Source: a virus. From it: a stretch of DNA of 64,000 nt. Made by a program: the position numbers and the translations under genes. The notes below the pieces were generated by a model. It searched no databases, had not been told where the DNA came from, and saw only the letters and a list, made by a program, of their open reading frames with translations. This document shows, piece after piece, positions 4,219 through 63,715 of the stretch (the first letter of the stretch is position 1; each line of letters opens with the position of its first letter). The DNA lies in the IMG/VR virus record IMGVR_UViG_3300025141_013870, positions 54,249 through 118,248 of that record; one strand, written 5' to 3'.

Positions 4219-4257
4219 ATTTTCAAAAAATAATACATAGTGCTAGGGGGAAAATTT

Positions 4258-4644
4258 ATGTCGTATTCAGATAAGGTATTAGATCATTTTAGCAACCCCC
4301 GTAATGTCGGAGCGATGGATAAAGATGATATCAATGTAGGCACAGGTATGGTCGGTGCTCCAGCGTGCGGCGATGTGATGAAGCTTCAGCTCAAGATCAA
4401 TGACAGCGGCATCATCGAGGATGCCAAGTTCAAGACATTCGGCTGCGGTTCTGCTGTTGCATCAAGCTCTTTAATAACAACATGGGTAAAAGGATTGAAT
4501 ATAGCAGAGGCTGAGAAGATAAAAAATTCATCAATTGCAGAGGAGCTTTGCTTGCCGCCTGTGAAGATTCACTGTTCAGTTCTTGCTGAAGATGCTATAA
4601 AGGCTGCGATTAAAGATTACCGGATCAAGAATGACAAGAAGTGA
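4258..4644 (+). CDS. iscU: Fe-S cluster scaffold protein, IscU-like
   Basis: Scaffold on which [2Fe-2S] clusters are built and passed to carriers. All ligands are present in the 128-residue product: C37 and D39 (PACGD), C63 (FGCGS) and C106 (KIHCS). The LPPVK motif (99-103), the known docking site for the HscA chaperone in IscU proteins, is intact. A GTG at 4240 is in frame, but AGGGGG at 4245-4250 sits 7 bases before the ATG at 4258, and the protein then begins exactly like bacterial IscU. The first 250 bases are richer in GC and in host-like codons than the neighbours, suggesting recent transfer. No cysteine desulfurase (IscS) is in the window, so sulfur must come from the host enzyme. Confidence 0.93.
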   Translation: MSYSDKVLDHFSNPRNVGAMDKDDINVGTGMVGAPACGDVMKLQLKINDSGIIEDAKFKTFGCGSAVASSSLITTWVKGLNIAEAEKIKNSSIAEELCLPPVKIHCSVLAEDAIKAAIKDYRIKNDKK

Positions 4645-4897
4645 TATACAAAAGCTCATTGATGAAGAAATCAACTCTGCCTTATCAATGCACGGAGGCC
4701 ATGTTTCAATTCATGAATTTGACGAAGAGAGCAAATCTTTGAAATTAAAAATGGGCGGTGGGTGTCATGGATGCTCATCATCAAGAATGACTATGAAAGT
4801 GGGAGTTGAAAATCTTCTCAGGGAGGTGTTTCCTGATATTGGAGAAATTGAGGATGTCACTGATCATTCAACAGGTGAAAATCCATACTATGACTAA
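4631..4897 (+). CDS. NifU C-terminal domain/NfuA-like Fe-S carrier
   Basis: An 88-residue stand-alone Nfu domain. The signature GGGCHGCSSS holds the two cysteines (C45, C48) that bridge a [4Fe-4S] cluster in Nfu proteins. It overlaps the end of the IscU gene by 14 bases, which implies coupled translation, and ends 9 bases before the A-type carrier gene. It lacks the degenerate A-type domain found in E. coli NfuA, so it resembles the stand-alone Nfu of other bacteria. Its expected job is to pass clusters to client enzymes such as aconitase; this is inferred from family and context. Confidence 0.88.
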   Translation: MTRSDIQKLIDEEINSALSMHGGHVSIHEFDEESKSLKLKMGGGCHGCSSSRMTMKVGVENLLREVFPDIGEIEDVTDHSTGENPYYD

Positions 4898-4906
4898 GGA
4901 ACAAAT

Positions 4907-5233
4907 ATGGCAATAACAGTTACAGAGAAAGCAAGAATCAAAATAAAATCTCTGCTTAATCAGCGTCAAACTCCTGATCATTTTCTAAGGATAGGGTTAA
5001 GAGGAGGTGGCTGCTCTGGGTTTATGTATAAATATGAATTCATCGACAAGACAGATGAGAAAGATAAGATATTTGAATTTGATGACATTAAAATTTGCAT
5101 CGATATAAAATCCTATTTATTTCTTAATGGAATAGAGATAGATTATCAAGAAGACTTACTAAAGTCAGGCCTTGTGTTTAATGCTCCGGGAGCATCGCGA
5201 ACGTGTGGCTGTGGTGAGTCAGTAACATTTTGA
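4907..5233 (+). CDS. A-type Fe-S carrier, IscA/ErpA-like
   Basis: 108 residues, normal for HesB/IscA/ErpA. The three invariant cysteines are present: C36 in GGGCSG, and C100 and C102 in the C-terminal TCGCGES. It completes a scaffold, Nfu and A-type carrier trio. The start is supported by an AGGA-type ribosome site just upstream (AAGGAAC). A-type proteins hand clusters to apoenzymes and are known in a few phages. I cannot separate IscA, ErpA and SufA by sequence alone. Confidence 0.9.
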   Translation: MAITVTEKARIKIKSLLNQRQTPDHFLRIGLRGGGCSGFMYKYEFIDKTDEKDKIFEFDDIKICIDIKSYLFLNGIEIDYQEDLLKSGLVFNAPGASRTCGCGESVTF

Positions 5234-5240
5234 GGTATTG

Positions 5241-5843
5241 ATGAAGTGGATTACAAAAGTATCTCCATTAATTAAGGAAATTGAATTAAGAAAAAATCCA
5301 GTAGTCATACGTGTTAATAAGTTTGATGAAAAATCATCAAAAGAATTTGATAATCAAGTTGCTTTAGCGCATAATACTGGGCAAAAGGTTATTCCTATTG
5401 TCATTGACTCTTACGGCGGACAGGTTTATAGCTTGATGTCAATGATAAGTGCCATTAATCATTGTGAGATTCCAGTTGCTACAATAGTAGAAGGGAAGGC
5501 AATGTCATGTGGAGCTATACTTTTTTCATGCGGTGAGCAAGGCTTAAGGTTTATGGATCCTGATGCGACAGTCATGATTCATGATGTTTCATCTATGGAG
5601 TATGGAAAAGTTGAAGAGATAAAAGCGTCAGCTGAAGAAACAGAGAGGCTTAATCAAAAAGTCTATACAATTATGGCTAGAAACTGTGGAAAAAAAGACG
5701 ATTATTTTTTAAAGCTCGTTCATAAAAAAGGACACGCAGATTGGTTTTTAGATTCAACAGCTTGCAAAAAACACGGACTGGCTAATCAGATTCGTGTACC
5801 AAAGTTTAATATCAGCATTTCTGTTGATATAGATTTCGAATAA
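5241..5843 (+). CDS. ClpP-like serine peptidase
   Basis: About 200 residues with the ClpP/crotonase fold. The catalytic triad is readable: S89 in GKAMSCGA (bacterial ClpP has GxAxSMGA), H114 in VMIHD, and D167 in HADWFL, which aligns with the RDRFL aspartate of ClpP. The glycine-rich DSYGG at 56-60 matches the oxyanion-hole loop. The ATG at 5241 is preferred over the in-frame TTG at 5238 because GAGG sits 5 bases upstream. No ClpX/ClpA unfoldase is in the window, so it may pair with a host ATPase, act alone, or serve as a prohead-type protease. It lies between the Fe-S genes and the glyoxylate genes with gaps of about 10 bases. Confidence 0.85.
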   Translation: MKWITKVSPLIKEIELRKNPVVIRVNKFDEKSSKEFDNQVALAHNTGQKVIPIVIDSYGGQVYSLMSMISAINHCEIPVATIVEGKAMSCGAILFSCGEQGLRFMDPDATVMIHDVSSMEYGKVEEIKASAEETERLNQKVYTIMARNCGKKDDYFLKLVHKKGHADWFLDSTACKKHGLANQIRVPKFNISISVDIDFE

Positions 5844-9586: not shown

Positions 9587-10636
9587 ATGAAAATGAGACA
9601 TATGAAGATAGAATATGTGTGGATCGATGGTTGCAACCCATGGGGATTAAGATCAAAGGTGAAGGTTTTAAAATTGTCAGATGCCAACTTTAATGACACA
9701 ATAGAAGGGAGCATTGATAACATTCCTGAGTGGGGGTTTGATGGATCGTCAACTGAGCAGGCGTCTGGCGGCGACTCTGATTGTCTTCTACGGCCTGTCA
9801 GGTGTGTCGTAGACTCAATAAGAAACGACTACACCTCAGCAATAGTCTTATGTGACGTTCTTATGGGAGATGGATTTCCCCACCCAACAAACAATAGGTC
9901 GTCACTACTAGAGACATCAAGGCTGTGTGAAAGTCACAAGCCTTTCTTTGGTATCGAGCAGGAGTATACAATAATGAAAGATGAGAGGCCTCTCGGATTT
10001 CCTCCGTCTGGATACCCGGCTCCCCAAGGAAAGTATTATTGCTCAGCGGGCGGAGATAGATCATATGGAAGGAACATATCAGATGAGCATCTAGATGCGT
10101 GCATAGCATCTGGTCTCAATATTACAGGAACAAATGCCGAGGTCATGCCAGGACAGTGGGAATATCAGATAGGGGGACCAGGCGTAGGGCCCGTGGAAGC
10201 GAGTGACGAGCTCTGGATATCTAGATGGATTCTATTAAAGGTAGCAGAGAGAAATGGAATGACTGTCACGTTTGAGCCAAAGCCCATGCTTGGTGACTGG
10301 AATGGCGCAGGATGTCACACAAATTTTAGCACAGAGAAGATGAGAGAGGAAGGCGGCATGAGACACATTGAGCAGGCATGCAAGAAGATGTCAAATAACA
10401 TCCAGCCTCATCTTGACGCGTATGGTGACGGCATAGAGTTTAGACTGACAGGAATGCACGAGACCTGCTCATATAGTGAGTTTAAGTGGGGCGTGGCTGA
10501 TAGAACAGCGTCAATAAGAATACCAAGGGGTGTATCAAATGATGGTCGAGGATATCTCGAGGATAGAAGACCCAATGCCAATTGTGATCCATATCAGGTC
10601 TGTAAGGTGATATTAGAATCGACGTGTATAGATTAA
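9587..10636 (+). CDS. Glutamine synthetase, eukaryote-type (GSII)
   Basis: Makes glutamine from glutamate, ammonia and ATP. The 349-residue length and the motifs YVWIDG, WGFDGSSTEQ, FGIEQEYTI, GTNAEVMPGQWEYQIG, KPMLGDWNGAGCHTN and RIPRG are those of the short decameric GSII family of eukaryotes and some bacteria, not the 470-residue bacterial GSI. It therefore lacks the adenylylation loop used by GlnE to switch GSI off. An insensitive enzyme would be useful to a phage (inference). The start codon directly follows the endolysin stop, with AAGGA at 9578-9582. Its product can feed the asparagine synthetase encoded at 56 kb. Confidence 0.95.
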   Translation: MKMRHMKIEYVWIDGCNPWGLRSKVKVLKLSDANFNDTIEGSIDNIPEWGFDGSSTEQASGGDSDCLLRPVRCVVDSIRNDYTSAIVLCDVLMGDGFPHPTNNRSSLLETSRLCESHKPFFGIEQEYTIMKDERPLGFPPSGYPAPQGKYYCSAGGDRSYGRNISDEHLDACIASGLNITGTNAEVMPGQWEYQIGGPGVGPVEASDELWISRWILLKVAERNGMTVTFEPKPMLGDWNGAGCHTNFSTEKMREEGGMRHIEQACKKMSNNIQPHLDAYGDGIEFRLTGMHETCSYSEFKWGVADRTASIRIPRGVSNDGRGYLEDRRPNANCDPYQVCKVILESTCID

Positions 10637-23713: not shown

Positions 23714-23728
23714 TAGCTAGGTTTGTTT

Positions 23729-24772
23729 ATGAAAAAAGATTATTATGAAATATTAGGAGTTAATAAAGATTCTACGCCAGATGAGATCAAAAAGGTGTAT
23801 AGAGGACTTGCTTTAAAATATCATCCTGATAAAAATCCAGATGATAAGGATGCAGAGCAGATGTTTAAAAATATCTCTGAGGCATATGCAGTTTTATCAG
23901 ATAAAGAAAAACGATATAACTATGATAATTTCGGGCATCATGGGGACCAACAGTTTCCAGGAGGCTTTGAAGATATATTTGATCACTTTTCTGGAATGTT
24001 TGGAGGTACATTTGGATCTGAATTTTTCAATAGACAAAGAAGATCTGCACCTGTTGGGAACCCTGTTGCGATAAAAGTTCCTATTACTCTTGAAGAAGTT
24101 CTTTCCGGAACAGTAAGAGATATAAATTTTTCTAGAATAGATTCATGCGAAGAGTGTAGCGGGCGTGGATTCATCAACGATCATGATGTTGGAATTTGTG
24201 AAGGGTGTAGCGGAAGCGGTCAATCTCATCACAGTGTCGGGTTTGTCAAGGTCCAGATGACATGTGGTCAATGCGGCGGCACAGGAAAGAAAATAACTAA
24301 TCCATGTTCATCTTGTAATGGAAAAGGATTAAATCATAAGAAAGATAATGTGACTATAACAATTCCCCCTGGCGTCTTAGAGGGTGACCAGCTATGTATC
24401 TCTGGAAAAGGAAACAGGCCATCTAACAATCACGCACCTGGAGATCTTGTTTTAATCATGTCAATAGTAGGTGACAATAGATTTGAAAGAGATGGACCTC
24501 ATCTTTATAGCAGAGAGTCTATATCGTTCCCGCAAGCAGCACTCGGCACGTCTATTATAGTAGATTTAATAGACGGAAAGATAAACCTCGCGATACCGCC
24601 TGGTACACAACCAAACTCTATGATGAGCATTCCAAAAAGAGGGTTGCCCATCGATACGCAAAATTCCGAAAGGGGTCACCACTATGTCAGAATTTCAGTA
24701 GAAGTTCCAAAGTCATTAAGCGCCAGAGAGAGAGAAATAATAGAGAAACTTAGAGACATTGAAAGCGTGTAA
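23729..24772 (+). CDS. dnaJ: Chaperone DnaJ, full type I
   Basis: About 347 residues with all DnaJ parts: J domain ([25 protein letters not shown]), a glycine/phenylalanine linker (about 80-105), and a zinc-binding domain with four CxxCxGxG repeats ([32 protein letters not shown]). The C-terminal substrate domain carries [10 protein letters not shown] and NLAIPPGTQ. It partners DnaK, which is encoded at 61.8 kb. The ATG at 23729 is chosen over an in-frame TTG at 23723. A complete DnaJ is rare in phages. Confidence 0.95.
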
Positions 24773-40974: not shown

Positions 40975-42030
40975 ATGTTCGCCATGTCTTTATCTGAATT
41001 TCTTTTTGACAAGGATGCAGCTGTCCTTTTTGAGGGAGGGCTTAAGCTACCCGTCAACCAGAGGCATAGGCTAGCAGAGCTTACTCCTGACGTTGCAGAT
41101 CAAGCTATAAAGATATATGAGGATTTAATTAATAGGTGGAATGGATATCTTATCTCTATTGGAGAAGAACCCGTTAAAGCGCTTAGACCAACAGGTTCAG
41201 TTAGCTATTACCAGCTTGATATCTCGCAGAGCAAAGATAACGTGTATGGCGACATAGATTATCTTGTTGAGTTTCCTTTGGCAGTAGAAGGAAATGAATC
41301 TGAGATAAGGCAAGCAGATAGAAGAGCAGACAAAAAATACACAGAACTATTTATTAATTTTTTAAATACAAAGATGCCTGATATTGTAGATGTAGAAGCA
41401 ACCTTGGAGGGCAGGACACCCATGATGGTGATGATACGTCTGCCAGATAACAAGCTAGTTCAAGTTGATACTGTAAAAACATTTCCTAGATATTCATCTT
41501 GGATGGAGGGGCGCTATACGCCAGAGAGAGGATTAAAAGGATATACAACAGGAAATCTCTATAAGGCACTAGGGGACTACCTAGTAATGTCAATTGGAAC
41601 AGAAGGTGTAATAGTTAGATCAAAGATGGGTCAAAGAGTCCAGTCTAAGTTTTCACGAAGTAAAGGAGTCGAAACATCAAGCATTAGTCTTGATATAAGA
41701 AACTTTCTAAGAGATATAGCTAGATATATCATAGGATCCGATGACATAGAAGAAGACCCGCTTTTGACAAAAAATCCAGGAGTAGATCCTGTAAACGTGA
41801 AAATATCTGGAATTGCACGTGGAATCAAGGGTCTTGCAAGAACACTAGGGAAGTACGGTGTGTACGATACAGATGATATGCTAAGAGAGATTCACTCCAG
41901 CTATGTGGAAAATGTAAGAAAAAACATAGAAAATAAATTGAACAAGGGATTAGACGAGACAGCTTATCAAAAACTGTTACAGCTAAATGATCATGTGGCA
42001 GCTATAGTAAAGAAAGAGTTTGGTATTTAA
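40975..42030 (+). CDS. Putative nucleotidyltransferase (Pol-beta-like fold)
   Basis: 351 residues. The pattern RPTGSVSYYQLD near 70-82, then VYGDIDYLVEF with two aspartates near 92-94, and a third in KLVQVDTV near 163 fits the GS...DxD...D layout of minimal nucleotidyltransferases. AAGGA at 40964-40968 sets the start. The same GDxD ... VQVD arrangement recurs in the 1141-residue protein at 43484, so the two may be related. The substrate is unknown: tRNA ends, nucleotides or a protein are all possible. Confidence 0.55.
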   Translation: MFAMSLSEFLFDKDAAVLFEGGLKLPVNQRHRLAELTPDVADQAIKIYEDLINRWNGYLISIGEEPVKALRPTGSVSYYQLDISQSKDNVYGDIDYLVEFPLAVEGNESEIRQADRRADKKYTELFINFLNTKMPDIVDVEATLEGRTPMMVMIRLPDNKLVQVDTVKTFPRYSSWMEGRYTPERGLKGYTTGNLYKALGDYLVMSIGTEGVIVRSKMGQRVQSKFSRSKGVETSSISLDIRNFLRDIARYIIGSDDIEEDPLLTKNPGVDPVNVKISGIARGIKGLARTLGKYGVYDTDDMLREIHSSYVENVRKNIENKLNKGLDETAYQKLLQLNDHVAAIVKKEFGI

Positions 42031-42031
42031 C

Positions 42032-42682
42032 GTGGATTATTTTATTTCAGATATACATTTTGGTCATAAGAACATTATAAGACTTTGTGACAGGCCGTTT
42101 AGTTCTGTTTCAGAGATGAATAGCGAGATTATTAAAAAATGGAATTCAATAGTCACAGATGCAGATAGGGTTTTTGTTGTAGGAGATGTTTTTTTGTGCC
42201 CTCTATTAGAGGTAAAGTCGTATATGAAAGAACTGAACGGGTACAAGATTCTCATAAAAGGTAACCATGATTTATCAAAATCAATGATGCTAGAGGCGGG
42301 ATTTGATGAATACCATAGGAGCTATGATTATACGATGCCAGATGGAAGAGTTGCACTTCTAAAGCATTATCCTGTTCCTGACTGCCTACTAGATATGTAT
42401 GATTTAATGATACACGGACACATACATATATCAAAGAGGCTACGAGGCAAGAAGATTAATGTGAGCTGTGATATATGGGATTTTACGCCTATAGGTGTAG
42501 ATGTTTTAAACGAGATGGATACGCGATCTATTTGCAAGGATGATTCAGAATTTGTTGAGGTATCTTTAGATGATGATAAAATGTTAACAATGAATGTAAA
42601 AATACCGATGCTTGATGTCTCAGGATTCATTGATCATATGTATAGACAAATGAATGGGAAGTGGCCGCGGAGTAGAGAATGA
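42032..42682 (+). CDS. Calcineurin-like metallophosphoesterase
   Basis: About 216 residues from GTG 42032, 1 base after the previous stop (an in-frame TTG at 42020 is the alternative). Motifs: FISDIHFGHKN, VVGDVF, IKGNHD, LLKHYP and IHGHIH, a complete metallophosphoesterase set with the FGHKN form typical of YfcE-like phage enzymes. It is located among nucleotidyltransferases, so it may process phosphate ends or a nucleotide product (inference). Confidence 0.85.
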   Translation: MDYFISDIHFGHKNIIRLCDRPFSSVSEMNSEIIKKWNSIVTDADRVFVVGDVFLCPLLEVKSYMKELNGYKILIKGNHDLSKSMMLEAGFDEYHRSYDYTMPDGRVALLKHYPVPDCLLDMYDLMIHGHIHISKRLRGKKINVSCDIWDFTPIGVDVLNEMDTRSICKDDSEFVEVSLDDDKMLTMNVKIPMLDVSGFIDHMYRQMNGKWPRSRE

Positions 42683-43482
42683 AATTAGGATTATTTGGCG
42701 GAGGATTCAAACCATTCACAACTGGTCACTTTGCTAAATTAGCAAATGCAATAAGAGATAATGATAAGGTTTATCTATTCTACGGAATTCAGGAAAGGAA
42801 GCCTCCAAAAATTGGAAAAAGAGGAAAGCCCCTAAAGTCCCAGCAAAAATTTAGACCCATAGGAGATAGTGGAAGATTCTATACGCCAGAGATATCTAGA
42901 GAAATTTTCGCCATATATGAGAGAGCAATTGAAAGAGAGCTTCCAATGGTAGAGGTTGAATCTACAATAGGCAGCACGCCTATGAGAAGAGTGTTTGAAA
43001 TTATTGAAGAGTTTGTAGAAAATCCAGAGATGTATGAGAAGGTTACAATCTACGGAGCTGGAGACACTATTAGAGAGTATCTTAGAAAGCTACCATACTT
43101 TGGAGATCTTATAGAGACTGGAAAGGTACAGCTAGGATCGATATCTCCGGAATCTGCAAATGATTATCTTGATGAAGAGAGGCTCGTGGATATAATAGGT
43201 CAAAGTGAAGAAAGTGCATTGTCATCTTTAGGTTCGTATTATCCAGACGCTTCACAAGAGGACATAGAAAGAATGCAGAGAATAAGGGGCACAGAGGTTA
43301 GGGATATTGCATCAACAAAATCAGGAATCGAAGAGGCAAAGAGATTCCTACCGCCATTTTTAAATAATGATGAGAAGCAGCAGGTGATAAATCTATTACT
43401 AGGAGAAATTTCACCTCCACAGGATCAAGCGCTATCTGAGCTTTATTTGAGAAGTTTTATAAGAGGGATTATAAGAGGTTGA
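42679..43482 (+). CDS. Cytidylyltransferase/NMN adenylyltransferase-like protein
   Basis: 267 residues. LFGGGFKPFTTGHFAKL holds the TxGH nucleotidyltransferase motif (T18-x-G-H region), and RIRGTEVRDIAS near 208-219 corresponds to the ISSTxxR motif. The insert KKFRPIGDSGRFYTPE is family-specific. It could make NAD precursors, CDP-compounds or CoA intermediates. The C terminus YLRSFIRGIIRG is a tag-like helix. It overlaps the phosphoesterase gene by ATGA. Confidence 0.72.
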   Translation: MKLGLFGGGFKPFTTGHFAKLANAIRDNDKVYLFYGIQERKPPKIGKRGKPLKSQQKFRPIGDSGRFYTPEISREIFAIYERAIERELPMVEVESTIGSTPMRRVFEIIEEFVENPEMYEKVTIYGAGDTIREYLRKLPYFGDLIETGKVQLGSISPESANDYLDEERLVDIIGQSEESALSSLGSYYPDASQEDIERMQRIRGTEVRDIASTKSGIEEAKRFLPPFLNNDEKQQVINLLLGEISPPQDQALSELYLRSFIRGIIRG

Positions 43483-43483
43483 T

Positions 43484-46400
43484 GTGGCTATAATTTTAAC
43501 ACCAGATATGATTGCGAGAGCATCTCATAAGTTTACTGCAAAGAAGTTTATAACAGAACAGGATGAGCCAGATCTTACAAAACATATCTGGCATTTTTAT
43601 GAAGATTTTGAGATGCCTCTCTCTGAGCTATTTGAATTAATTGATGCAGCAAAGGCGGGTGAGCTGCAAGACGTAGAGGAAAAACTAGATGGACAAAACA
43701 TAACCTTTACAGTTAGAGACGGAACTCTTCTCTTCTTTAATAAGGGCGGCAGTGGCCAGGGAAAAGATAGATCGGGAGTAATGTCTCACCCAGTCGAGAG
43801 CGTGAGAAATGCTTTTATTAAAGCATATGACGCAATTGAAGAGATAGCAATTCCTAGTGACGACCCTAGCAGGTGGCAGAACCTTTTTCAAAATGGTGCT
43901 GTGATGATTGAGAGTGCGATTCTCACGCCTGAAAATCCTAATACAATAGTATATGACACTCCTTCGATAAGATTTATCAAGACGTCTACGAGCAGTCCAG
44001 ATGTAAATTTAGCATTTTCTGAGTTTAAGTCTGTTGCAGACTCAACTGTTAATGAAGAGTTTTATATGGGACCAGTTCCCTATCTTAATCTAAAGGCATC
44101 TCTCGAAGCAACTGATCAGGAAGCGGATGACATCAAAGGAAATCTTTCACAATTAGTCTTTAGTTACGGAGTCTCTACGCAAGGGACAGTTGGAAATCTT
44201 ATTCACGCCATGGTTAGAATAAGATTAGAGAAGAGTGGCTTAGTTCCAGATTCTTTATTAGATCTAGCAGCTACACGAGTTTCGACTGGAAGAGGACCAA
44301 TAGGAAGAATGTTTCCAAAAATTGCTGGAAAAGATGCATGGGTAACATTTCAAACAGAGGTACTTAATAATAGGCAATCCTACCTTGCGGAATCTATAAT
44401 CCCTCTAGAGAGAATAATTCAAAGAGTTGGGTCCTTAGCATTTAGAAATCTTGAATTTACTCTTGAGGCAGGAAATAGAGATGATCTGATTCAGCAGGTA
44501 GCTGATACTAAAAGAGCATTTGAAGGTGGACACATACTCGCTAGCCCAAAGCAACTGGAAGGAATCAGAGTAGCTCTAGATAGGATAGGCATGTCATCAG
44601 CTGATGACATGGACAATAGATTTAGTAGAGCGACTGAAGGGATAGTCTTCCAGTGGAAGGGAAAGACAAGAAAGCTAACTGGTCTCTTTACACCTATTAA
44701 TAAGCTTAGGGGATTCTTCGCTTACGGAGAAAACAAGGCAACAATACAAGAGCCTGTCACTCCTAATGCACTACAAGAAGCTATTAGAAAAAATTTAAAT
44801 ATGCTTTTATTCGAAGGCGGTAATGCATTTAAATATCCAGACGGAACGAATGTAACAAGGCAAGAGAGAATACCACGTTCAGAGGTTGAACCAATCGTCT
44901 CAAATTTTGTGAAAGACATTCTTGAACCACTAGGAATGGATCATATAGGAGTAGGAACAACTGTGACTGATACCCCTGATGTCGGAGATGTTGATGTAGT
45001 AGTTAGTGCAAATAATTCTAGAAGCCTCTATTCTCAGTTGTCAGCTCATCCTGAATTACAGAGAGAGCTTTCTGAAGCCCCGGGTATAAATAGACTTTAT
45101 TCACTCCCCGGCGGTGCGGGAATCGCAGTATTATATAAAGTTCCATCTACAGGTGATCTGGTTCAGGTAGATGTAATGCCAAGCAAAGGTGTCGATCTTG
45201 AACATATTTCGTGGATGCTAGCAGGAGCTTCTGCAGGCGGTGCAAAGTCACGATATAAAAACATACTTCTATCATGGATAGCAAAAAACAAGAGTGAAAA
45301 AGAGTCAGCAGAGACTGGCCAGAATATTAAATACACATACGCGCGAGGGCTTTTGAAAAAGATAGACGGTATTCCAGAGCAAGGCGGTAGAGTTACTGAT
45401 CCTGATGTCTTTTTACCTATGTTAGGTATCACTGCATCAAAGGGTGCAGTAAGATCATTTGAAGGACTTGTTGATGAGATGAGAAAAGATACCTTCCTCA
45501 GTTCAATATTACCAAAATATAGAGAGTATCTTAATAATACAAGTCATCTATTAAGTCCAGACCCTAGGAGAGCAGCTGAGGCTGAGGAAGCTATGAGATA
45601 TATAGAAGGAGGATCTATGGATGAAGTATTTAGAAATATAATAAAACATCTTTTAGAAGAGGGAGAACAAATAAATTTATTTCCAGATACCGGCACACCT
45701 GATGGATCAGGAAAAGAAAGAATTGACTACAGGTGGCTTAATGACAACTCTGTAGAAGATCCATTATATGACCACGCTTCTAAAAAGCTTTATCCCGCTG
45801 GGTATGCTGCACTTCTTAAGGGCATGACAAGCGAGAGTGCTGGAAAGGAAAGGGTCGAAGGAGAGAAATTCGAGCATGGAATAATCGAATACGCCAAAGA
45901 GATCGGCGCAGGAAATATGAAACGAGTCGGAGGTCAAGGAGAGGATCTGCAAGGTGTCTCAGGCGCAGTGCAAGGTAGGTCATATGAGCTTAAAAAGACA
46001 AAGGCGTCAACGCCTAATTTAAAACTTAACTCATCATTTCCAAAACCAAAGGAAAAACACTATTATATGTTTGTGACAAATCTTCCAATGATTGATGAGA
46101 TGAAAGTTGGGATGGGGAATTTATCGCAGACAGGAAAAGATTTTGAAACATTTGAGGGAGAGCTTGATGAGTTAAATAGCTTCATTCAGGAAATAAATTA
46201 CTTTTCTAAAGCTTTAAGCGCAACTGAAAGAGAGTCTATAGTTAGACGTACTAAAGATAGACTAGAGATGTCTACAAGACAACAGACGTTGCCTCTTCCT
46301 GATCGTGAAACAAACGTTGTTACAGAGGCAGAAGCCCCTCAGCATAGTGACACAGTCGATAGATTTATTAATCTTATAGATAAAATTGGAAAGAAAAACT

Positions 46401-46909
46401 ATGATGACTACAATGAAAGTGATTCTGAAAGACTTGAAGTAATCAACAGCCTTGAGCATAATGGGAAGGTGTCTTCTGCTGCACTAAAAAGACAAATCAC
46501 AACTAAACTTGACGGATCTAAAAGTCAAACACAGCTTCAAAAAGAACTTACAAAAGTCTTTAGAAATATACTGGGCGATCTTAGATGTTGGGTAGTTCCT
46601 AGCACCGCACTAAGAGTTTCTCTTCTTGCATCTGCATTTAAGGGAGGTGACGGAAAGATATTTGACAAATCCACGGGAAACTTGTTACCCGGAGGAAAGA
46701 AACATATTGAAGAGGAGCTCAGAAATAAATTTGGAGATTTAGATTTAGCAGGCAAGCTAGCTGAGAAAATTTCTCCAGAAATTGTAAACCAAGCGCAGGG
46801 AACAGCGGTAAAGAAAAAGGAGTCTGAGTGGGACATACGATTGGGTCTGTTAAAGGTTAGGGTTAGCTTAAAAATAGAACCCCCTACTGTAAAAGGTGAT
46901 GATGATTAA
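43484..46909 (+). CDS. Giant ligase-like plus nucleotidyltransferase protein
   Basis: 1141 residues from a GTG (GAGG 5 bases upstream). The N-terminal half has covalent nucleotidyltransferase/ligase motifs: motif I EEKLDGQN (K67, D69, G70), a motif III-like AVMIESAIL, motif IV EGIVFQW (E385) and motif V GKTRKLTG (about 391-399). The middle carries a Pol-beta-type site: GDVDVVV (D502, D504) and LVQVDVM (D563). The last 400 residues are helical and basic, without a known motif. It may seal RNA or DNA and add nucleotides, or transfer AMP to a target. The size and the fusion are unusual. Confidence 0.65.
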   Translation: MAIILTPDMIARASHKFTAKKFITEQDEPDLTKHIWHFYEDFEMPLSELFELIDAAKAGELQDVEEKLDGQNITFTVRDGTLLFFNKGGSGQGKDRSGVMSHPVESVRNAFIKAYDAIEEIAIPSDDPSRWQNLFQNGAVMIESAILTPENPNTIVYDTPSIRFIKTSTSSPDVNLAFSEFKSVADSTVNEEFYMGPVPYLNLKASLEATDQEADDIKGNLSQLVFSYGVSTQGTVGNLIHAMVRIRLEKSGLVPDSLLDLAATRVSTGRGPIGRMFPKIAGKDAWVTFQTEVLNNRQSYLAESIIPLERIIQRVGSLAFRNLEFTLEAGNRDDLIQQVADTKRAFEGGHILASPKQLEGIRVALDRIGMSSADDMDNRFSRATEGIVFQWKGKTRKLTGLFTPINKLRGFFAYGENKATIQEPVTPNALQEAIRKNLNMLLFEGGNAFKYPDGTNVTRQERIPRSEVEPIVSNFVKDILEPLGMDHIGVGTTVTDTPDVGDVDVVVSANNSRSLYSQLSAHPELQRELSEAPGINRLYSLPGGAGIAVLYKVPSTGDLVQVDVMPSKGVDLEHISWMLAGASAGGAKSRYKNILLSWIAKNKSEKESAETGQNIKYTYARGLLKKIDGIPEQGGRVTDPDVFLPMLGITASKGAVRSFEGLVDEMRKDTFLSSILPKYREYLNNTSHLLSPDPRRAAEAEEAMRYIEGGSMDEVFRNIIKHLLEEGEQINLFPDTGTPDGSGKERIDYRWLNDNSVEDPLYDHASKKLYPAGYAALLKGMTSESAGKERVEGEKFEHGIIEYAKEIGAGNMKRVGGQGEDLQGVSGAVQGRSYELKKTKASTPNLKLNSSFPKPKEKHYYMFVTNLPMIDEMKVGMGNLSQTGKDFETFEGELDELNSFIQEINYFSKALSATERESIVRRTKDRLEMSTRQQTLPLPDRETNVVTEAEAPQHSDTVDRFINLIDKIGKKNYDDYNESDSERLEVINSLEHNGKVSSAALKRQITTKLDGSKSQTQLQKELTKVFRNILGDLRCWVVPSTALRVSLLASAFKGGDGKIFDKSTGNLLPGGKKHIEEELRNKFGDLDLAGKLAEKISPEIVNQAQGTAVKKKESEWDIRLGLLKVRVSLKIEPPTVKGDDD

Positions 46910-46930
46910 TCTGCTTTCTCTTTTGTGACA

Positions 46931-47197
46931 ATGTCAACTGAAAAAATATTTGAACAGGTTAGGTTTGTCTCCTCTTATGTGGGTGACTGTGATGACTGGG
47001 TGACAGTTAAGAAACAGGTTATGTTAAATCTGCCGTCAGTGCTAAGAAAGAACTTCTCTACTAGAGATCCTAAAACTAAAGAGCAGTGGTTGAATGATTT
47101 TGAGAAGGAGCTGATTAATTACTATAGGGAGCTAACCGGAGTGACGCTAGTGTTAAGAACCCTTGCTCAGCGGAGAGAGATATTCGATGTCTTATAA
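46931..47197 (+). CDS. Small helical unknown protein
   Basis: 88 residues from ATG 46931 (GTG 46925 is the alternative). It has mixed charges and two tryptophans (DDWVTVKKQV, KEQWLNDFEKELINYY). Its end overlaps the next gene by 11 bases. No function is known. Confidence 0.6.
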   Translation: MSTEKIFEQVRFVSSYVGDCDDWVTVKKQVMLNLPSVLRKNFSTRDPKTKEQWLNDFEKELINYYRELTGVTLVLRTLAQRREIFDVL

Positions 47198-49876: not shown

Positions 49877-51665
<1,789 letters not shown>

Positions 51666-52760: not shown

Positions 52761-53516
52761 TTGAATAATTCCTTAGATCCTTATTTTAAAAACGTCGGTA
52801 GAAGAAAGCTTCTTACAAGAGAAGAAGAGGTATATCTATCACAGAAAATAGAAAAAGGAGACGAGCTAGCAAGAGCTCATATGATTGAAGCGAATCTAAG
52901 ATTAGCAATAAGTATAGCCAAAAAATATTATTATAGTGGCTGTAATATGGATGATCTTATTCAGGAATCTAATATCGGCTTGATGAAAGCAGTTGAAAAG
53001 TTTGACTGGAGGAAAGGATTCAAGTTTAGCACGTATGCAAGCTGGTGGATTAGACAATCAGTATGCAGGTACATTAGCTCTCACAAAAACACAATTAAAA
53101 TTCCTGCTCACGCTAGCAGTCTTTCATATAAAATAAAAAATCTTATTAGTGAATATGAAGATGAGTTTTCCCAAAAGCCAACAATAGAAGAGATTTCTGA
53201 AATATTGGGAGTAACTCAGAGCATGGTTAAGGATAGCTTTGACTCTATAAAATTACAATATATGGTCCAGTATGATGCTAAGATTGGAAATGATGATACC
53301 GGTAGACGTATCTTTGAGACGATTCCAGATGAGCATATCACTCTCCCAGACGATGAGCTAGATAAGAAAAAGCTATCTAATATTGTCGCATCATCTCTTT
53401 CTCGTTTAACAAAGAGAGAAGAACAGGTGATGAGATTAAGGTTTGGGCTATTCGAACTTGATGATGATAACTTTGCTGTAACTGAAGAACAGCTAAATAA
53501 TATAAAGGAGCAATAA
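52761..53516 (+). CDS. Sigma-70-family factor lacking a normal region 4.2
   Basis: 251 residues from a TTG start. Region 1.2 (LLTREEEVYLSQKIEKGDELA), region 2 (NLRLAISIAKKYY, DLIQESNIGLMKAVEKFD, KFSTYASWWIRQSV) and region 3 (a bundle near 130-175) are typical of RpoD/RpoH-type factors. Region 4.1 (SSLSRLTKREEQVMRLRFGL) is present. The -35-reading helix-turn-helix is missing: the chain stops after FAVTEEQLNNIKEQ, a degenerate trace of region 4.2. The next gene encodes a separate helix-turn-helix that could replace it. It should redirect RNA polymerase to phage promoters. Confidence 0.88.
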   Translation: MNNSLDPYFKNVGRRKLLTREEEVYLSQKIEKGDELARAHMIEANLRLAISIAKKYYYSGCNMDDLIQESNIGLMKAVEKFDWRKGFKFSTYASWWIRQSVCRYISSHKNTIKIPAHASSLSYKIKNLISEYEDEFSQKPTIEEISEILGVTQSMVKDSFDSIKLQYMVQYDAKIGNDDTGRRIFETIPDEHITLPDDELDKKKLSNIVASSLSRLTKREEQVMRLRFGLFELDDDNFAVTEEQLNNIKEQ

Positions 53517-54513: not shown

Positions 54514-55011
54514 ATGGAAATTGTAAAGTGGCCCAGCAATATATTGATGAAAAAGTCTGACATCGTTAGTGATGTCAAAGATGTTCATGATGTATTTGAC
54601 GAGATGAAGATTCTTATGAGATCTAATAACGGTATAGGATTAGCTGCTCCTCAGGTGGGCATCTCAAAAAGATTCTTTATTCTTGATGAATCTATTCTAG
54701 CAGATGTTGACAAAAGAGATAAGACATGTGATGTCTTGGTCATGGTCAATCCTGAGATAGTTGACGGTTTAGGAGAGATTGTTGTTGAAGAGGGGTGTCT
54801 ATCTATTCTGGGAGAGACGTTTAGTGTTCAACGAGCTCCCTGGATTTTAGTGAGATTTACAGATGAGAACGGAGATAATCACGAGAAAGGGTTTTCTGGA
54901 TTGACAGCGATAGCAATTCAGCATGAGTGTGATCATCTAGATGGTAGGATTCTCGTTGAGAGAGCTACACTTGAAAGAAGAAATGAAATTAGAGAGAGGT
55001 TAACAGCTTAA
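54514..55011 (+). CDS. def: Peptide deformylase
   Basis: Removes the formyl group from new proteins. All three motifs are present in the 165-residue product: GIGLAAPQ (40-47), EEGCLS (C95) and QHECDH (H137, E138, H141). Deformylases are known in marine phages, where they may favour turnover or stability of phage or photosystem proteins. This one has the bacterial type core with a short C-terminal tail, typical of phage forms. Confidence 0.94.
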   Translation: MEIVKWPSNILMKKSDIVSDVKDVHDVFDEMKILMRSNNGIGLAAPQVGISKRFFILDESILADVDKRDKTCDVLVMVNPEIVDGLGEIVVEEGCLSILGETFSVQRAPWILVRFTDENGDNHEKGFSGLTAIAIQHECDHLDGRILVERATLERRNEIRERLTA

Positions 55012-55590: not shown

Positions 55591-55806
55591 ATGTCACGAG
55601 GCTCTTTAGTTAAATTATCAGAAACAGCTAAGATATCAATTTGTATTGATTCACCTAATGATGTTTGCGGGCTTGTTCTAGGTCTTGTAGATTTTTATGA
55701 TGTTACGGGCATACGTGATCCTAAGCCCGTGTGCTATTCTGTGTTTTTAGAGTCTGGATTGACTGAAACATTTTATGAAGAAGATTTGGAGGTGATCTGT
55801 GAGTAG
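55591..55806 (+). CDS. Small SH3-like unknown protein
   Basis: 71 residues with beta-strands (GSLVKLSETAKISICID, GLVLGLVDFYDVTG) and an acidic end. ATAAGG lies just before the ATG. It overlaps the next gene by 8 bases. Unknown. Confidence 0.55.
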   Translation: MSRGSLVKLSETAKISICIDSPNDVCGLVLGLVDFYDVTGIRDPKPVCYSVFLESGLTETFYEEDLEVICE

Positions 55807-56269
55807 AAAGATAATAGCTGTTAGCGGCGGATTTGATCCTATTCACGTAGGACATGTGAGAATGATACTAGATGCTGGTACTCATGGAGACGTTATCATT
55901 ATTTTGAATACCGATGAGTGGCTTATGAGAAAGAAAGGATATACATTCATGAACTGGGAGGAGAGGGCTGAGATCCTTCGAAGCATACGTGGAGTTATGA
56001 ATGTCGTTGCTGCAAAAGATGATGATAACACTGTGTGTGAAACTTTGCGAAATCTTAAGGTTGATATTGATCTTAATACATTTGCAAATGGCGGTGATAG
56101 AGTCACGTCAAATACACCTGAGATGGATACATGCAAAGATCTAGGGATCTCATTGTTGTGGAATTGCGGAGGCGGAAAGATTCAGAGCAGTTCATCTCTT
56201 GTTGACACAAGGGTCTGGAGTAAGGATGGCATATGGAACAGATCTACAAAGAAAAAGGACAAAGAGTAG
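55799..56269 (+). CDS. Cytidylyltransferase-like nucleotidyltransferase (HldE-C/RfaE-like)
   Basis: 156 residues from a GTG (GGAGG 8 bases upstream). GGFDPIHVGHVRM contains the HxGH motif, FANGGDR is the conserved late strand and IQSSSSLVDTR matches ISSTxxR. This is the fold of ADP-heptose synthase and glycerol-3-phosphate cytidylyltransferase. It may activate a sugar or alcohol for a surface glycan. It lies just upstream of asparagine synthetase. Confidence 0.82.
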   Translation: MSRKIIAVSGGFDPIHVGHVRMILDAGTHGDVIIILNTDEWLMRKKGYTFMNWEERAEILRSIRGVMNVVAAKDDDNTVCETLRNLKVDIDLNTFANGGDRVTSNTPEMDTCKDLGISLLWNCGGGKIQSSSSLVDTRVWSKDGIWNRSTKKKDKE

Positions 56270-56272
56270 AGA

Positions 56273-57871
56273 ATGTGCGGCTTTTTAACTTACTTTGGTT
56301 ATGACTATGATCTTTTTCAATTGGAAGAGTCGTCTAAGAAAATAAGCTATAGAGGTCCTGATACATCATCATACAAGACAATATCGCCTAATGTTGTGAT
56401 GACATTTCACCGGCTTGCCATAATGGACACATCATCTTTAGGTGATCAGCCTTTGTTTCACCCTGAGGATGCTAGCCTATCCTTGGTGTGCAATGGTGAG
56501 ATCTATAATTATAAAACTTTAATAGATGAGCTTGGGTTTCAAATGAAATCTAATTCTGATTGTGAAGTCATTTTGCATCTTTATAAAAAATACGGTATAG
56601 AAAAAACAGTTGAGATGCTTGATGGAGTTTTTGCATTTACACTATACGATGGAAAAAAGAATATCTTATTTGCATCTAGAGATTCATTTGGTGTGAGGCC
56701 TTCGTTTATAGGATGGGATAACCGCGGTGGCGTTGCGATTGCTAGCGAGATAAAAGCTTTAGTTGATATTTGTGATAAGAGTATAATTCCCTTCCCGCCA
56801 GGATCATGGTGGGCTTCTGACGTTCCTTATGCATTTACAGGGTTTAATGTACATTTTGATAATAAATTTCAAAAGGGCGATGAAAAAGAATTTTGTAAAA
56901 ATATAAAAAATCTTCTAACTAATTCTGTTAAAAAGAGAATGATGTCTGATAGGGAGGTAGGATGCTTGTTATCTGGTGGACTAGATTCCAGCCTGATATC
57001 AGCATTAGTTGCCTCGATGACAGACGACAGAAAAAAATTAAAAACATTTTCAATTGGCATGGAAGGAAGTCCAGACTTAGATCATGCAAAAATAGTTGCA
57101 GATCACATAGGATCTGATCATCACTCAATTCAATTATCTCAACAGGAATTTCTTGATGCTATAGATGTTGTTATTTATAACATCGAATCATATGATACAA
57201 CGACAGTTAGAGCATCAGTGGGAAATTATCTAGTTTCAAAATACATTAGAGAGAACACAGATGTTAAAGTTGTATTTAATGGTGACGGAGCAGATGAGGT
57301 ATGTATGGGATATGTTTATAATAAGCATGCTCCCTCTGTAGATGATTTTTACAATGAGAACATTAAGCTAATTGATGAAATTTATATGTTTGATGTATTA
57401 CGATCAGATAGATGCGTGAGCTCTAATGGACTTGAAGCCCGCACACCATTTCTTGATAAAAAATTTGTAGAATATTATATGTCAATTCCGCCTGAGATGA
57501 AGATGTTCGGTAGCAACAAAAGACCTGAAAAATATCTTTTACGCAAGGCATTTGAAAAATCTAATCTTCTTCCTGATGAAGTTTTGTGGCGTCGCAAGTG
57601 TGCTTTTTCAGATGGTGTGAGCAGTATTGAAAATTCATGGCACAAAACGTTGCAAAAGTTTATAAATTCTCAGGTCACAGATAAAGAGTTTGAGAGAGAA
57701 AGGGCAAAGATCGAGCACTGTTCTCCTATTTTAAAAGAAAGTTACTATTATAGGAAGGTTTTTAAGACGTTTTTTGGAGATAATTCTCATATTATTCCTC
57801 ACTTTTGGATGCCAAATTGGTCAGATACAGTTGATCCTTCTGCTAGAGAGTTATCTGGATATAAAGAATAG
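56273..57871 (+). CDS. asnB: Asparagine synthetase, glutamine-hydrolysing
   Basis: 532 residues. The N-terminal glutaminase has the nucleophile C2 (MCGF) and CNGEIYNY; the synthetase domain has the PP-loop LLSGGLDSS near 234-242 and SIGMEGSPDLDHAKIVADHI. The full length and both active sites suggest it works, turning aspartate plus glutamine into asparagine. Alternatively it may amidate another acceptor such as a sugar, since AsnB-like proteins often occur in surface-sugar clusters and a cytidylyltransferase-like gene is adjacent. Confidence 0.93.
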   Translation: MCGFLTYFGYDYDLFQLEESSKKISYRGPDTSSYKTISPNVVMTFHRLAIMDTSSLGDQPLFHPEDASLSLVCNGEIYNYKTLIDELGFQMKSNSDCEVILHLYKKYGIEKTVEMLDGVFAFTLYDGKKNILFASRDSFGVRPSFIGWDNRGGVAIASEIKALVDICDKSIIPFPPGSWWASDVPYAFTGFNVHFDNKFQKGDEKEFCKNIKNLLTNSVKKRMMSDREVGCLLSGGLDSSLISALVASMTDDRKKLKTFSIGMEGSPDLDHAKIVADHIGSDHHSIQLSQQEFLDAIDVVIYNIESYDTTTVRASVGNYLVSKYIRENTDVKVVFNGDGADEVCMGYVYNKHAPSVDDFYNENIKLIDEIYMFDVLRSDRCVSSNGLEARTPFLDKKFVEYYMSIPPEMKMFGSNKRPEKYLLRKAFEKSNLLPDEVLWRRKCAFSDGVSSIENSWHKTLQKFINSQVTDKEFERERAKIEHCSPILKESYYYRKVFKTFFGDNSHIIPHFWMPNWSDTVDPSARELSGYKE

Positions 57872-61819: not shown

Positions 61820-63715
61820 ATGAGCAAAGTAATAGGGATCGATTTAGGCACAACAAATTCTTGTGTCGCTGTAATTGAAGGAAATCAACCAAAAGTCATT
61901 ACAAATGAAGAAGGGAATCGTACGACGCCTTCTGTAGTTGCTTTTGACAAAGAGGGAGACAGACTTGTTGGAGTTGCTGCACGTCGCCAAGCAGTTACAA
62001 ATCCTGATTCTACGATTTATTCTGTAAAGAGATTTATGGGAATGCGCTTCAAAGAGGCGAAGAAAGAAATCAAAAATGTTCCATACAAAGTGACGCAGTC
62101 AAGCGATGGTGATTGTAGAATTTCAGTAAATGGTAAGAATCTTGCTGCAGCAGAGATTTCTGCACATGTCTTATCAAAGCTCAAGCGTAGTGCTGAATCT
62201 TATCTTGGTCACAAAGTGACTGAAGCTGTTATCACGGTTCCCGCTTACTTTAATGATTCTCAGCGTCAGGCTACAAAGGATGCTGGAAAGATAGCTGGCC
62301 TGGATGTAAAGCGTATTATTAATGAACCTACAGCTGCAGCGCTTGCATATGGTTTTGATAAAAAAGGTGAGCAGAAGATAGCTGTATTTGACTTAGGCGG
62401 AGGAACTTTTGATATCTCTATTTTAGAAATTTCTGAAAATGTTGTTGAAGTTTTAAGTACAAACGGTAATACACATCTTGGCGGTGATGACATTGATCAA
62501 ATTTTAATTACGTGGCTTATTGATACATTTAAATCAGACACTGGTCTTGACATAAGCGACGATAGTATGGTAATTCAAAGGTTGAAAGATGCAGCGGAAA
62601 AAGCTAAGATAGAGTTATCTAGTGCGCCGACAACTGAAATTAACTTGCCTTTTTTAACAGCTGACTCTACAGGGCCCAAGCACATAGCAGTTAATCTATC
62701 TAGATCTGAATTTGAAAAGATGATTGATAAATTTTCAAAGAAGACGCTTGTTCCTGTTCGAGCTGCTTTGAAAGATGCAGGATTGTCAAAGAAGTCTATT
62801 GATGAAGTTATAATGGTAGGAGGATCAACAAGAATCCCTCTGATAAGAAACACTGTAGAAAAATTCTTTGGAAAGAAGTCTAACAACTCTGTAAACCCCG
62901 ATGAGGTCGTTGCTCTTGGTGCAGCTGTTCAAGGCGGCGTATTCTCCGGAGAGGTCAACGATGTGCTTCTTTTAGACGTAACTCCGCTATCTCTGGGAAT
63001 AGAAACGCTGGGAGGAGTAATGACACGACTAATAGATAGAAACACTACAATCCCATGTCAAAAGAGCGAGATATTCAGCACGGCTGCAGACAATCAGCCA
63101 ACAGTAGATATACATGTCTTGCAGGGTGAACGTAGATTTTCAGATGACAATAGAACCTTAGGAAGATTTCAACTTGATGGAATTCCCCCAGCGCCAAGAG
63201 GGATACCTCAAATTGAGGTGACATTTGATATTGATGCAAACGGTATCGTAAGTGTTGCTGCAGCAGATAAGGCGACTCAAAAAGAGCAATCCATTACAAT
63301 TACTTCTGGAAACTCTCTATCTGAAGATGAAATACAGGAAATGGTAGCTGAAGCAAAGGAAAATGAAGAGAGAGACAAAGAGAAGCAAAGAACAATCGAA
63401 GCTCGTAATAAGCTAGATAGCCTCACTTATCAAAGTGAAAAGACAATCAATGAGAATGGTGAAAAGATCCCAGAAGAAACTATTCAGTTGATCAAAGATG
63501 AGCTATCTTCAGCAAAAGAAGCACTTGATTCTGATGATGTCGATGCTATGGAGGCAGCCTTTAAATCTCTTGAAACGGTGTTTCATGAAACAGTAAAGTC
63601 TCTATACGCAGATTCTGTGAAGGAGTCCATAGAAAATACGTCTGACATAGATTTTTCTAATATTGGAAATGATACGAAAGCATCTACGGAGGCCGCTACT
63701 GAGCCTAATGCCTAG
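61820..63715 (+). CDS. dnaK: Chaperone DnaK (Hsp70)
   Basis: 631 residues, full length. Nucleotide-binding domain signatures are all present: [13 protein letters not shown] (1-20 region), [14 protein letters not shown] (near 190-203) and [12 protein letters not shown] (near 332-343). The substrate domain has [16 protein letters not shown] (near 382-397), and a helical lid follows. The C-terminal tail ends TEAATEPNA and lacks the usual bacterial EEVKD-type ending. ACAGGAG lies 8 bases before the ATG. With DnaJ, GroEL, ClpP and a J-domain protein it makes up a proteostasis kit. The 96-base gap upstream shows no other feature. Confidence 0.97.

Follow-up and report, generated by a model that had tools for sequence, protein, structure and literature searches.

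We propose, at about even confidence, that a block of four genes in an uncultured virus encodes a set of nucleic-acid end-processing enzymes, which is packaged into the phage head as polyprotein, released by the head protease and active early in infection. The window analysed here, i.e. the whole stretch of 64,000 nt, is part of the 118,248-base uncultured virus record IMGVR_UViG_3300025141_013870 (G000 in the following). Beyond the window, this record carries T4-type head genes for terminase, portal, a gp21-family head maturation protease (8e-53) and a gp23-type major head protein. The four ORFs are all located on the + strand at 40975-46909, tightly packed so that two junctions overlap by 11 and 4 nt and the third leaves a gap of 1 nt, and are followed by a small gene:

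40975..42030, + strand: orfA, 351 aa, putative Pol-beta-superfamily nucleotidyltransferase with the motif GS..YGDIDYLV..LVQVDT; optional partner
42020..42682, + strand: orfB, 220 aa, calcineurin-like metallophosphoesterase; optional partner of orfA
42679..43482, + strand: orfC, 267 aa, TxGH (NadM-like) nucleotidyltransferase; fused to the ligase in the relatives L001, L013 and L014
43484..46909, + strand: orfD, 1141 aa, polyprotein-like, composed of ligase, Pol X-like domain and C-terminal module
46925..47197, + strand: small gene after orfD, 90 aa, kept directly downstream in 8 of 8 relatives

Single-sequence searches of Pfam, PHROGs and the PDB left orfA, orfC and orfD nearly without annotation, and for orfD they gave no significant match. 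An earlier note on this DNA had nevertheless described four packed ORFs with motifs of nucleotidyltransferases, a phosphoesterase and a ligase, and this description is borne out by the ORF coordinates, the overlaps and the conservation of the motifs in relatives. The assignment of orfB as metallophosphoesterase was confirmed by Pfam (4e-5) and by phrog_547 (2e-43).

Several other genes of the window deserve mention. Three adjoining Fe-S cluster assembly genes, which are unusual for a phage, are found at 4240-5233 (NifU_N 2e-52, NifU 1e-19, Fe-S_biosyn 9e-19); behind them lies a Clp protease-like gene (5238-5843). Furthermore, the window encodes a glutamine synthetase-like protein (9587-10636), an asparagine synthase (56273-57871), a GroEL-like protein (50064-51665; phrog 5e-154), Hsp70 (61820-63715; 1e-251), a DnaJ-like protein as judged by its N-terminal sequence (23723-24772), a sigma-70-type factor (52761-53516) and a peptide deformylase (54514-55011).

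The conserved core of the locus is orfC plus orfD, whereas orfA and orfB are optional. A ligase profile search found relatives of the orfD ligase on at least 559 stretches in IMG/VR, of which 80 were retrieved; the ligase clusters analysed below number 35 at 80% identity. Among 50,697 INPHARED records only three carry the ligase, namely Microcystis phage Mel-JY01 and two uncultured huge phages, and the Mel-JY01 gene, annotated as 'cytidylyltransferase like protein', is a TxGH-ligase fusion. In the family libraries searched, the ligase family has no PHROG of its own and stays below the Pfam cut-off. A TxGH domain occurs in the same or the adjoining ORF in 32 of the 35 clusters (five of these pairs were missed by the regex and recovered by HMM), and the other three clusters are cut by contig ends. 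The fusions exist in both orders, with the TxGH domain N-terminal or C-terminal of the ligase. No other observation argues as strongly as this pairing for a joint action of the two enzymes. All eight nearest relatives possess orfC and orfD, adjoining or fused. Of the optional genes, L013, L014 and L018 have both, L001 has only orfA, and L015, L016, L017 and L019 have neither. Hence, the four-gene cassette of the earlier note stands as far as functional linkage is concerned, which is indicated by the repeated fusion, but a fixed set of four genes was rejected, given that both orfA and orfB are missing in four of eight relatives and orfB also in L001.

Searches of the genome collection returned seven ligase matches, all on MAG contigs and mostly short; four fully covered matches on bacterial or archaeal MAG contigs also show the pairing with TxGH, and a bacterial origin was therefore rejected. 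One of the contigs, the WOR-3 MAG chromosome L098, bears a ligase+TxGH gene starting M-GG, followed by a gene with the motif LRNLIRTLLNE; this locus inside a bacterial MAG is either a provirus or a misbinned phage contig. Two further arrangements were observed. Stand-alone ligases adjoin a protein in which a degenerate second KxDG-like region (SENLDGS or SEKIQAS) is fused to TxGH (L004 7229-9190, L023 7182-9029, L061 7241-10546), possibly an inactive ligase paralogue. The fused chains of L035 (235-3426), L055 and L058 hold other domains, recognised by eye only: a HAD-like stretch (FDFDDTLA) that sits between the TxGH and ligase parts, and zincin-like stretches with HExxH.

The N-terminal part of orfD is supported as a ligase-type covalent nucleotidyltransferase, for which structure modelling points to T4 Rnl1 and other RNA ligases as nearest folds. 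It comprises the following features:

43586..44785, + strand: KxDG ligase domain with a helical insertion (about aa 175-380) between motifs III and IV; pLDDT 85.5, pTM 0.81
43679..43693, + strand: ligase motif I, E66-K67-L-D-G70, near-invariant in relatives
44636..44650, + strand: ligase motif IV, E385-GIVF, near-invariant in relatives
44663..44683, + strand: ligase motif V, K394-TRKLTG, near-invariant in relatives

The ligase motifs I (KxDG), III, IV (EGxV) and V (K) are present and near-invariant across 27 diverse relatives, which argues against chance and upholds the earlier reading of KLDG, EGIVF and KTRKLTG. For a structure model covering aa 34-430, the top matches in the PDB were almost all RNA ligases (T4 Rnl1 5e-3, archaeal Rnl, Naegleria Rnl), with marginal E-values, low TM and a large insertion, and DNA ligases ranked lower in the same Foldseek search. 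K67, which according to the earlier note should lie at a nucleotide site, is part of motif I, where the ligase core of the predicted structure begins, and is aligned with the K of the T4 Rnl1 KEDG motif, with the motif III region in register, though at a weak score; this check thus did not refute the reading of the note. The Pfam RNA_ligase cut-off is not reached (window 0.025-0.067, 15 bits compared to a cut-off of 27; best member 2e-4), and 3 of the 27 members weakly match the adenylation model of NAD-dependent ligases (0.017). An assignment as DNA ligase was rejected on the basis of the fold ranking and of a profile comparison with T4 DNA ligase, which aligned a short stretch only.

The second core protein, orfC, shows both sequence hallmarks of TxGH enzymes and a terminal helix:

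42697..42729, + strand: motif GGGFKPFTTGH, with G8, F10, P12 and H17 invariant
43285..43302, + strand: motif RGTEVR (SxTxxR-type), with R208 invariant and G204 nearly so
43447..43479, + strand: C-terminal LRSFIRGIIRG, an LRxxIRxx helix as found at linkers and leaders

A profile built from 28 relatives matches NadM (2qjt) at 5.9e-11 and also PPAT, and 16 of the 28 members match CTP_transf_like, in agreement with the TxGH nucleotidyltransferase recognised before. The window harbors a second TxGH cytidylyltransferase-like gene at 55799-56269, which is unrelated to orfC. Generally, TxGH enzymes and ligase step 2 both form a 5'-5' pyrophosphate between AMP and a phosphate monoester. We hypothesise that this common chemistry, by which both could make the same App-type pyrophosphate link, would explain the TxGH-ligase pairing. 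A more far-reaching version, which we consider rather doubtful, is a new two-enzyme 5'-end pathway in hundreds of uncultured T4-like and jumbo phages, in which TxGH would add a nucleotide on a 5'-phosphate, giving an App- or NAD-like cap, and the KxDG ligase would seal or transfer it; the pair would reach the host from the phage head, in the form of a polyprotein that the head protease cuts.

The remaining part of orfD consists of two modules:

44816..45613, + strand: DNA polymerase X-like nucleotidyltransferase domain (Foldseek: Pol lambda/beta, 2.4e-5; viral Pol X)
45662..46906, + strand: C-terminal module, aa ~727-1141, poorly modelled; found otherwise only in L018, an unrelated module takes its place in L013-L017 and L019

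The second Pol-beta-like site that had been noticed in orfD (GTT...GDVD...VQVD, aa ~491-563) is corroborated by sequence and fold. In Foldseek, aa 445-710 match DNA polymerase lambda/beta (2.4e-5) and viral Pol X (2e-4), the catalytic GS..GDxD and the third Asp are present, and among the family HMMs none matched significantly (best DNA_pol_B_palm, 0.0048). Matches of the Pol profile to PPR proteins were treated as artefact; no single stretch passes alone. The Pol-beta-like nature of orfA holds at the level of the motifs GS..YGDIDYLV..VQVDT, which are invariant in five relatives, but its kinship to the orfD domain is only modest. It was first assumed from a joint alignment that orfA is a clear homologue; this view was weakened by a plain HMM of the orfD-type Pol domain, which fails to find orfA above shuffles. 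A profile-profile comparison with hhalign aligned the catalytic motifs (E 7e-4, probability 26%), hence membership of both in one Pol family appears only modestly supported. Membership in RlaP was rejected, as there was no match to the RlaP family HMM in Pfam. The C-terminal module may be a PD-(D/E)xK nuclease, as tentatively hinted by the ExK-type motif SYELKK.

The proposed packaging is mainly based on a recurrent head-protease signature. The predicted sites of the locus are as follows (a slash marks the predicted cut):

41026..41034, + strand: predicted head-protease site LFE20/GG of orfA; relatives have a leader MRSEELLRLLIRE/S plus IAE/GG
43484..43558, + strand: predicted leader of orfD ending ITE25/Q; low pLDDT at aa 17-33
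44807..44815, + strand: predicted head-protease site LFE444/GG, separating ligase and Pol X-like domain; full-length relatives all keep E-G-G; disordered at aa 436-443
45617..45667, + strand: linker VFRNIIKHLLE/E/GEQ with predicted cleavage; low pLDDT at aa 730-750

At a fixed slot before the ligase, [LIVMF]xE followed by GG or similar is found in 28 of the 35 clusters compared to approximately 5% expected from the flank composition; the clusters are related to each other, which makes the p-value only indicative. The orfD of the window is among the seven exceptions, its ITE25/Q sits further upstream. The Pol X-like domain begins E/GG in every full-length relative, and stand-alone ligases have leaders such as MKLFTYQEFLNE..LVLE/GG. 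For comparison, T4 IPII and IPIII start MKTYQEFIAE/A according to the T4 record, and this leader represents the T4 capsid-targeting sequence (PMC9026906). All predicted cuts of orfD fall in low-confidence linkers (aa 17-33, 436-443, 730-750) between confident domains. Thus, the single 'giant ligase' initially suggested is probably not one giant enzyme, since orfD appears as a chain of modules with predicted head-protease sites between them. Moreover, LRxxI[RKH]E is enriched near protein N-termini, with 6 cases in G000 versus 0.54 by shuffles and 4 in L001 versus 0.13. A gp21-family protease is encoded in 15 of 20 ligase-bearing records, and four of the five records without it are fragments <93 kb. 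Some family members (L010-L012, L098) start directly at M-GG without N-terminal leader, which as a sequence feature would be consistent with a required Gly-Gly N-terminus; the GG could also be merely the structural start of each domain.

Additional evidence for packaging comes from Pseudomonas phage PA5oct, whose homologues are remotely related (hhalign E ~1e-5, probability 81-84%). Its protein EST35_0231, a Pol X-like homologue (MSGNAF..LGSTGKFPVTGDIDLAID..YYQVDF; hhalign 7e-6), is annotated as 'structural protein, ESI-MS/MS'. The ligase-like neighbour EST35_0228 (hhalign 1.2e-5) is situated among MS-detected genes but is itself not flagged as MS-detected, and its annotation records no virion status. 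Pol X-like and ligase-like homologues both occur in the PA5oct-like phages examined, including Paride, which has been reported to replicate on dormant cells (PMC10761892).

Our analysis directly shows the sequence, the motifs, the predicted folds, the co-occurrence, the conservation of the sites and the protease gene in the genome. Packaging in this phage is fairly well supported by inference, and we infer the protease cleavage, the substrate and the order of steps. The core proteins orfC and orfD, optionally with orfA and orfB, would be made as enzymes for the virion and would enter the prohead via LRxxIRxx-type targeting helices. There, the gp21-type head protease would cut at the [LI]xE/GG sites and release separate domains, which would be ejected together with the phage DNA into the host and act on broken ends of nucleic acids as infection begins. 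orfB or the C-terminal module may trim or dephosphorylate these ends, the Pol X-like domains may add nucleotides, the TxGH domain, the ligase domain or both may activate the 5' end, and the ligase domain would finally seal the ends. The idea of a heal-and-seal system is partly supported by the predicted domains, i.e. ligase-type covalent nucleotidyltransferase, Pol X-like, TxGH and phosphoesterase, but the cassette showed no polynucleotide kinase. The fold cues are in conflict, the Pol X-like fold argues for DNA and the ligase for RNA. As the modelled ligase fold lies closest to RNA ligases, the balance tips slightly towards RNA as substrate, for instance tRNA cleaved by host defence.

The best surviving alternative is the DNA-specific version of this explanation, in which the packaged enzymes would repair the incoming phage genome by gap filling and ligation. 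Some large eukaryotic DNA viruses carry Pol X and ligase in the virion and thus provide a counterpart. The Pol X-like fold and the possible nuclease module fit well, and packaging would make sense for an early repair; however, the ranking of DNA ligases below RNA ligases speaks against it, and we regard this reading as possible, if doubtful. Alternatively, the locus may encode ordinary RNA or DNA repair enzymes that are made in the infected cell and stay unpackaged, whereby E/GG and the leaders would be structural features of domain starts. Pairs of ligase and Pol-beta proteins have their precedent in RNA repair with RlaP, and phages commonly encode RNA ligases with RlaP-type partners (PMC7824862). 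The genes that start at M-GG without leader also fit. Nevertheless, the resemblance of the leaders to the T4 capsid-targeting sequence, the [LI]xE at a fixed slot, the gp21 protease in the same genome and the virion detection of the PA5oct homologue, which starts likewise with MSGNAF, make this explanation unlikely.

Two further readings are live but less supported. Injected host-takeover effectors could attach nucleotides to proteins or RNA of the host (AMPylation or NMPylation) in a T4 Alt-like manner; protein-modifying domains, among them Pol-beta nucleotidyltransferases, are frequent in packaged polyvalent proteins of phages (PMC5512222), and the C-terminal module is swapped between relatives. 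However, the ligase core retains all ligase motifs and its pairing with a Pol X-like domain fits better to nucleic acids, so that this role is distinctly improbable. Least likely is a function centred on NAD, in which TxGH would make NAD from NMN and ATP, either countering an NAD-depleting defence or recycling NMN from an NAD-using ligase: the NAD remaking considered in the earlier note (NMN adenylyltransferase-like protein plus ligase) fits the NadM/PPAT profile match and the weak matches to the NAD-dependent adenylation model but has no other specific support, the ligase is closest in fold to ATP-using RNA ligases, the cassette showed neither an NAD-ligase Ia domain nor NadV or NadR, and TIR/SIR2-type NADases release ADP-ribose and do not yield NMN.

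Each of the folds, packaged effectors and RNA-repair sets are already known. Our searches of the open-access literature turned up no account of a ligase coupled to TxGH in this way, nor of head-protease sites that separate domains of this kind. Our analysis points to an unannotated phage ligase family, which is common in environmental phages and tied to TxGH in nearly every locus. A second suggestion is that enzymes are packaged by T4-like phages as polyproteins cleavable by the head protease. If true, the [LI]xE/GG signature would allow injected effectors to be recognised from the sequence alone. Laboratory phages that already exist permit a test of the idea, because the cultured PA5oct-like phages, including Paride, which kills dormant Pseudomonas, carry distant ligase and Pol X-like genes.

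Compared to known systems, the ligase domain shares the KxDG, EGxVF and K motifs with T4 Rnl1 and the Rnl families of ATP-dependent RNA ligases, which are also its nearest PDB folds at marginal E-values. It differs by scores below the Pfam cut-offs and by the insertion of about 200 helical residues between motifs III and IV, and compared to T4 Rnl1 it lacks the Rnl1 C-terminal domain and is fused to TxGH. Similarly, orfC resembles NadM-type NMN adenylyltransferases in the GRFQPFxxGH and SGTxxR motifs (profile E 6e-11), but enzymes of its type are paired with a ligase in nearly all loci. The Pol X-like domain has the GST..GDxD..QVD and SGxGE regions and the fold (match 2e-5) of DNA polymerase X (Pol beta/lambda), whereas a significant sequence match and a helix-hairpin-helix or lyase domain were not seen, and it is embedded in a head-protein chain. 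RlaP repair systems likewise combine a Pol-beta-type nucleotidyltransferase with an adjoining ligase; in contrast, the locus has another ligase family, no RlaP match in Pfam, and adds TxGH and virion features. Like the polyvalent proteins of phages, the locus would combine several effector domains in one injected chain, but here each domain is set apart by predicted head-protease sites, and such a domain set was not found described in the open-access literature. Finally, the leader form, the [LI]xE/ site and the gp21-type protease in the same genome are shared with the internal head proteins of T4 (IPI-III, Alt), from which the locus, whose products would be packaged likewise, differs by multidomain enzymes of nucleic-acid type with predicted sites between the domains.
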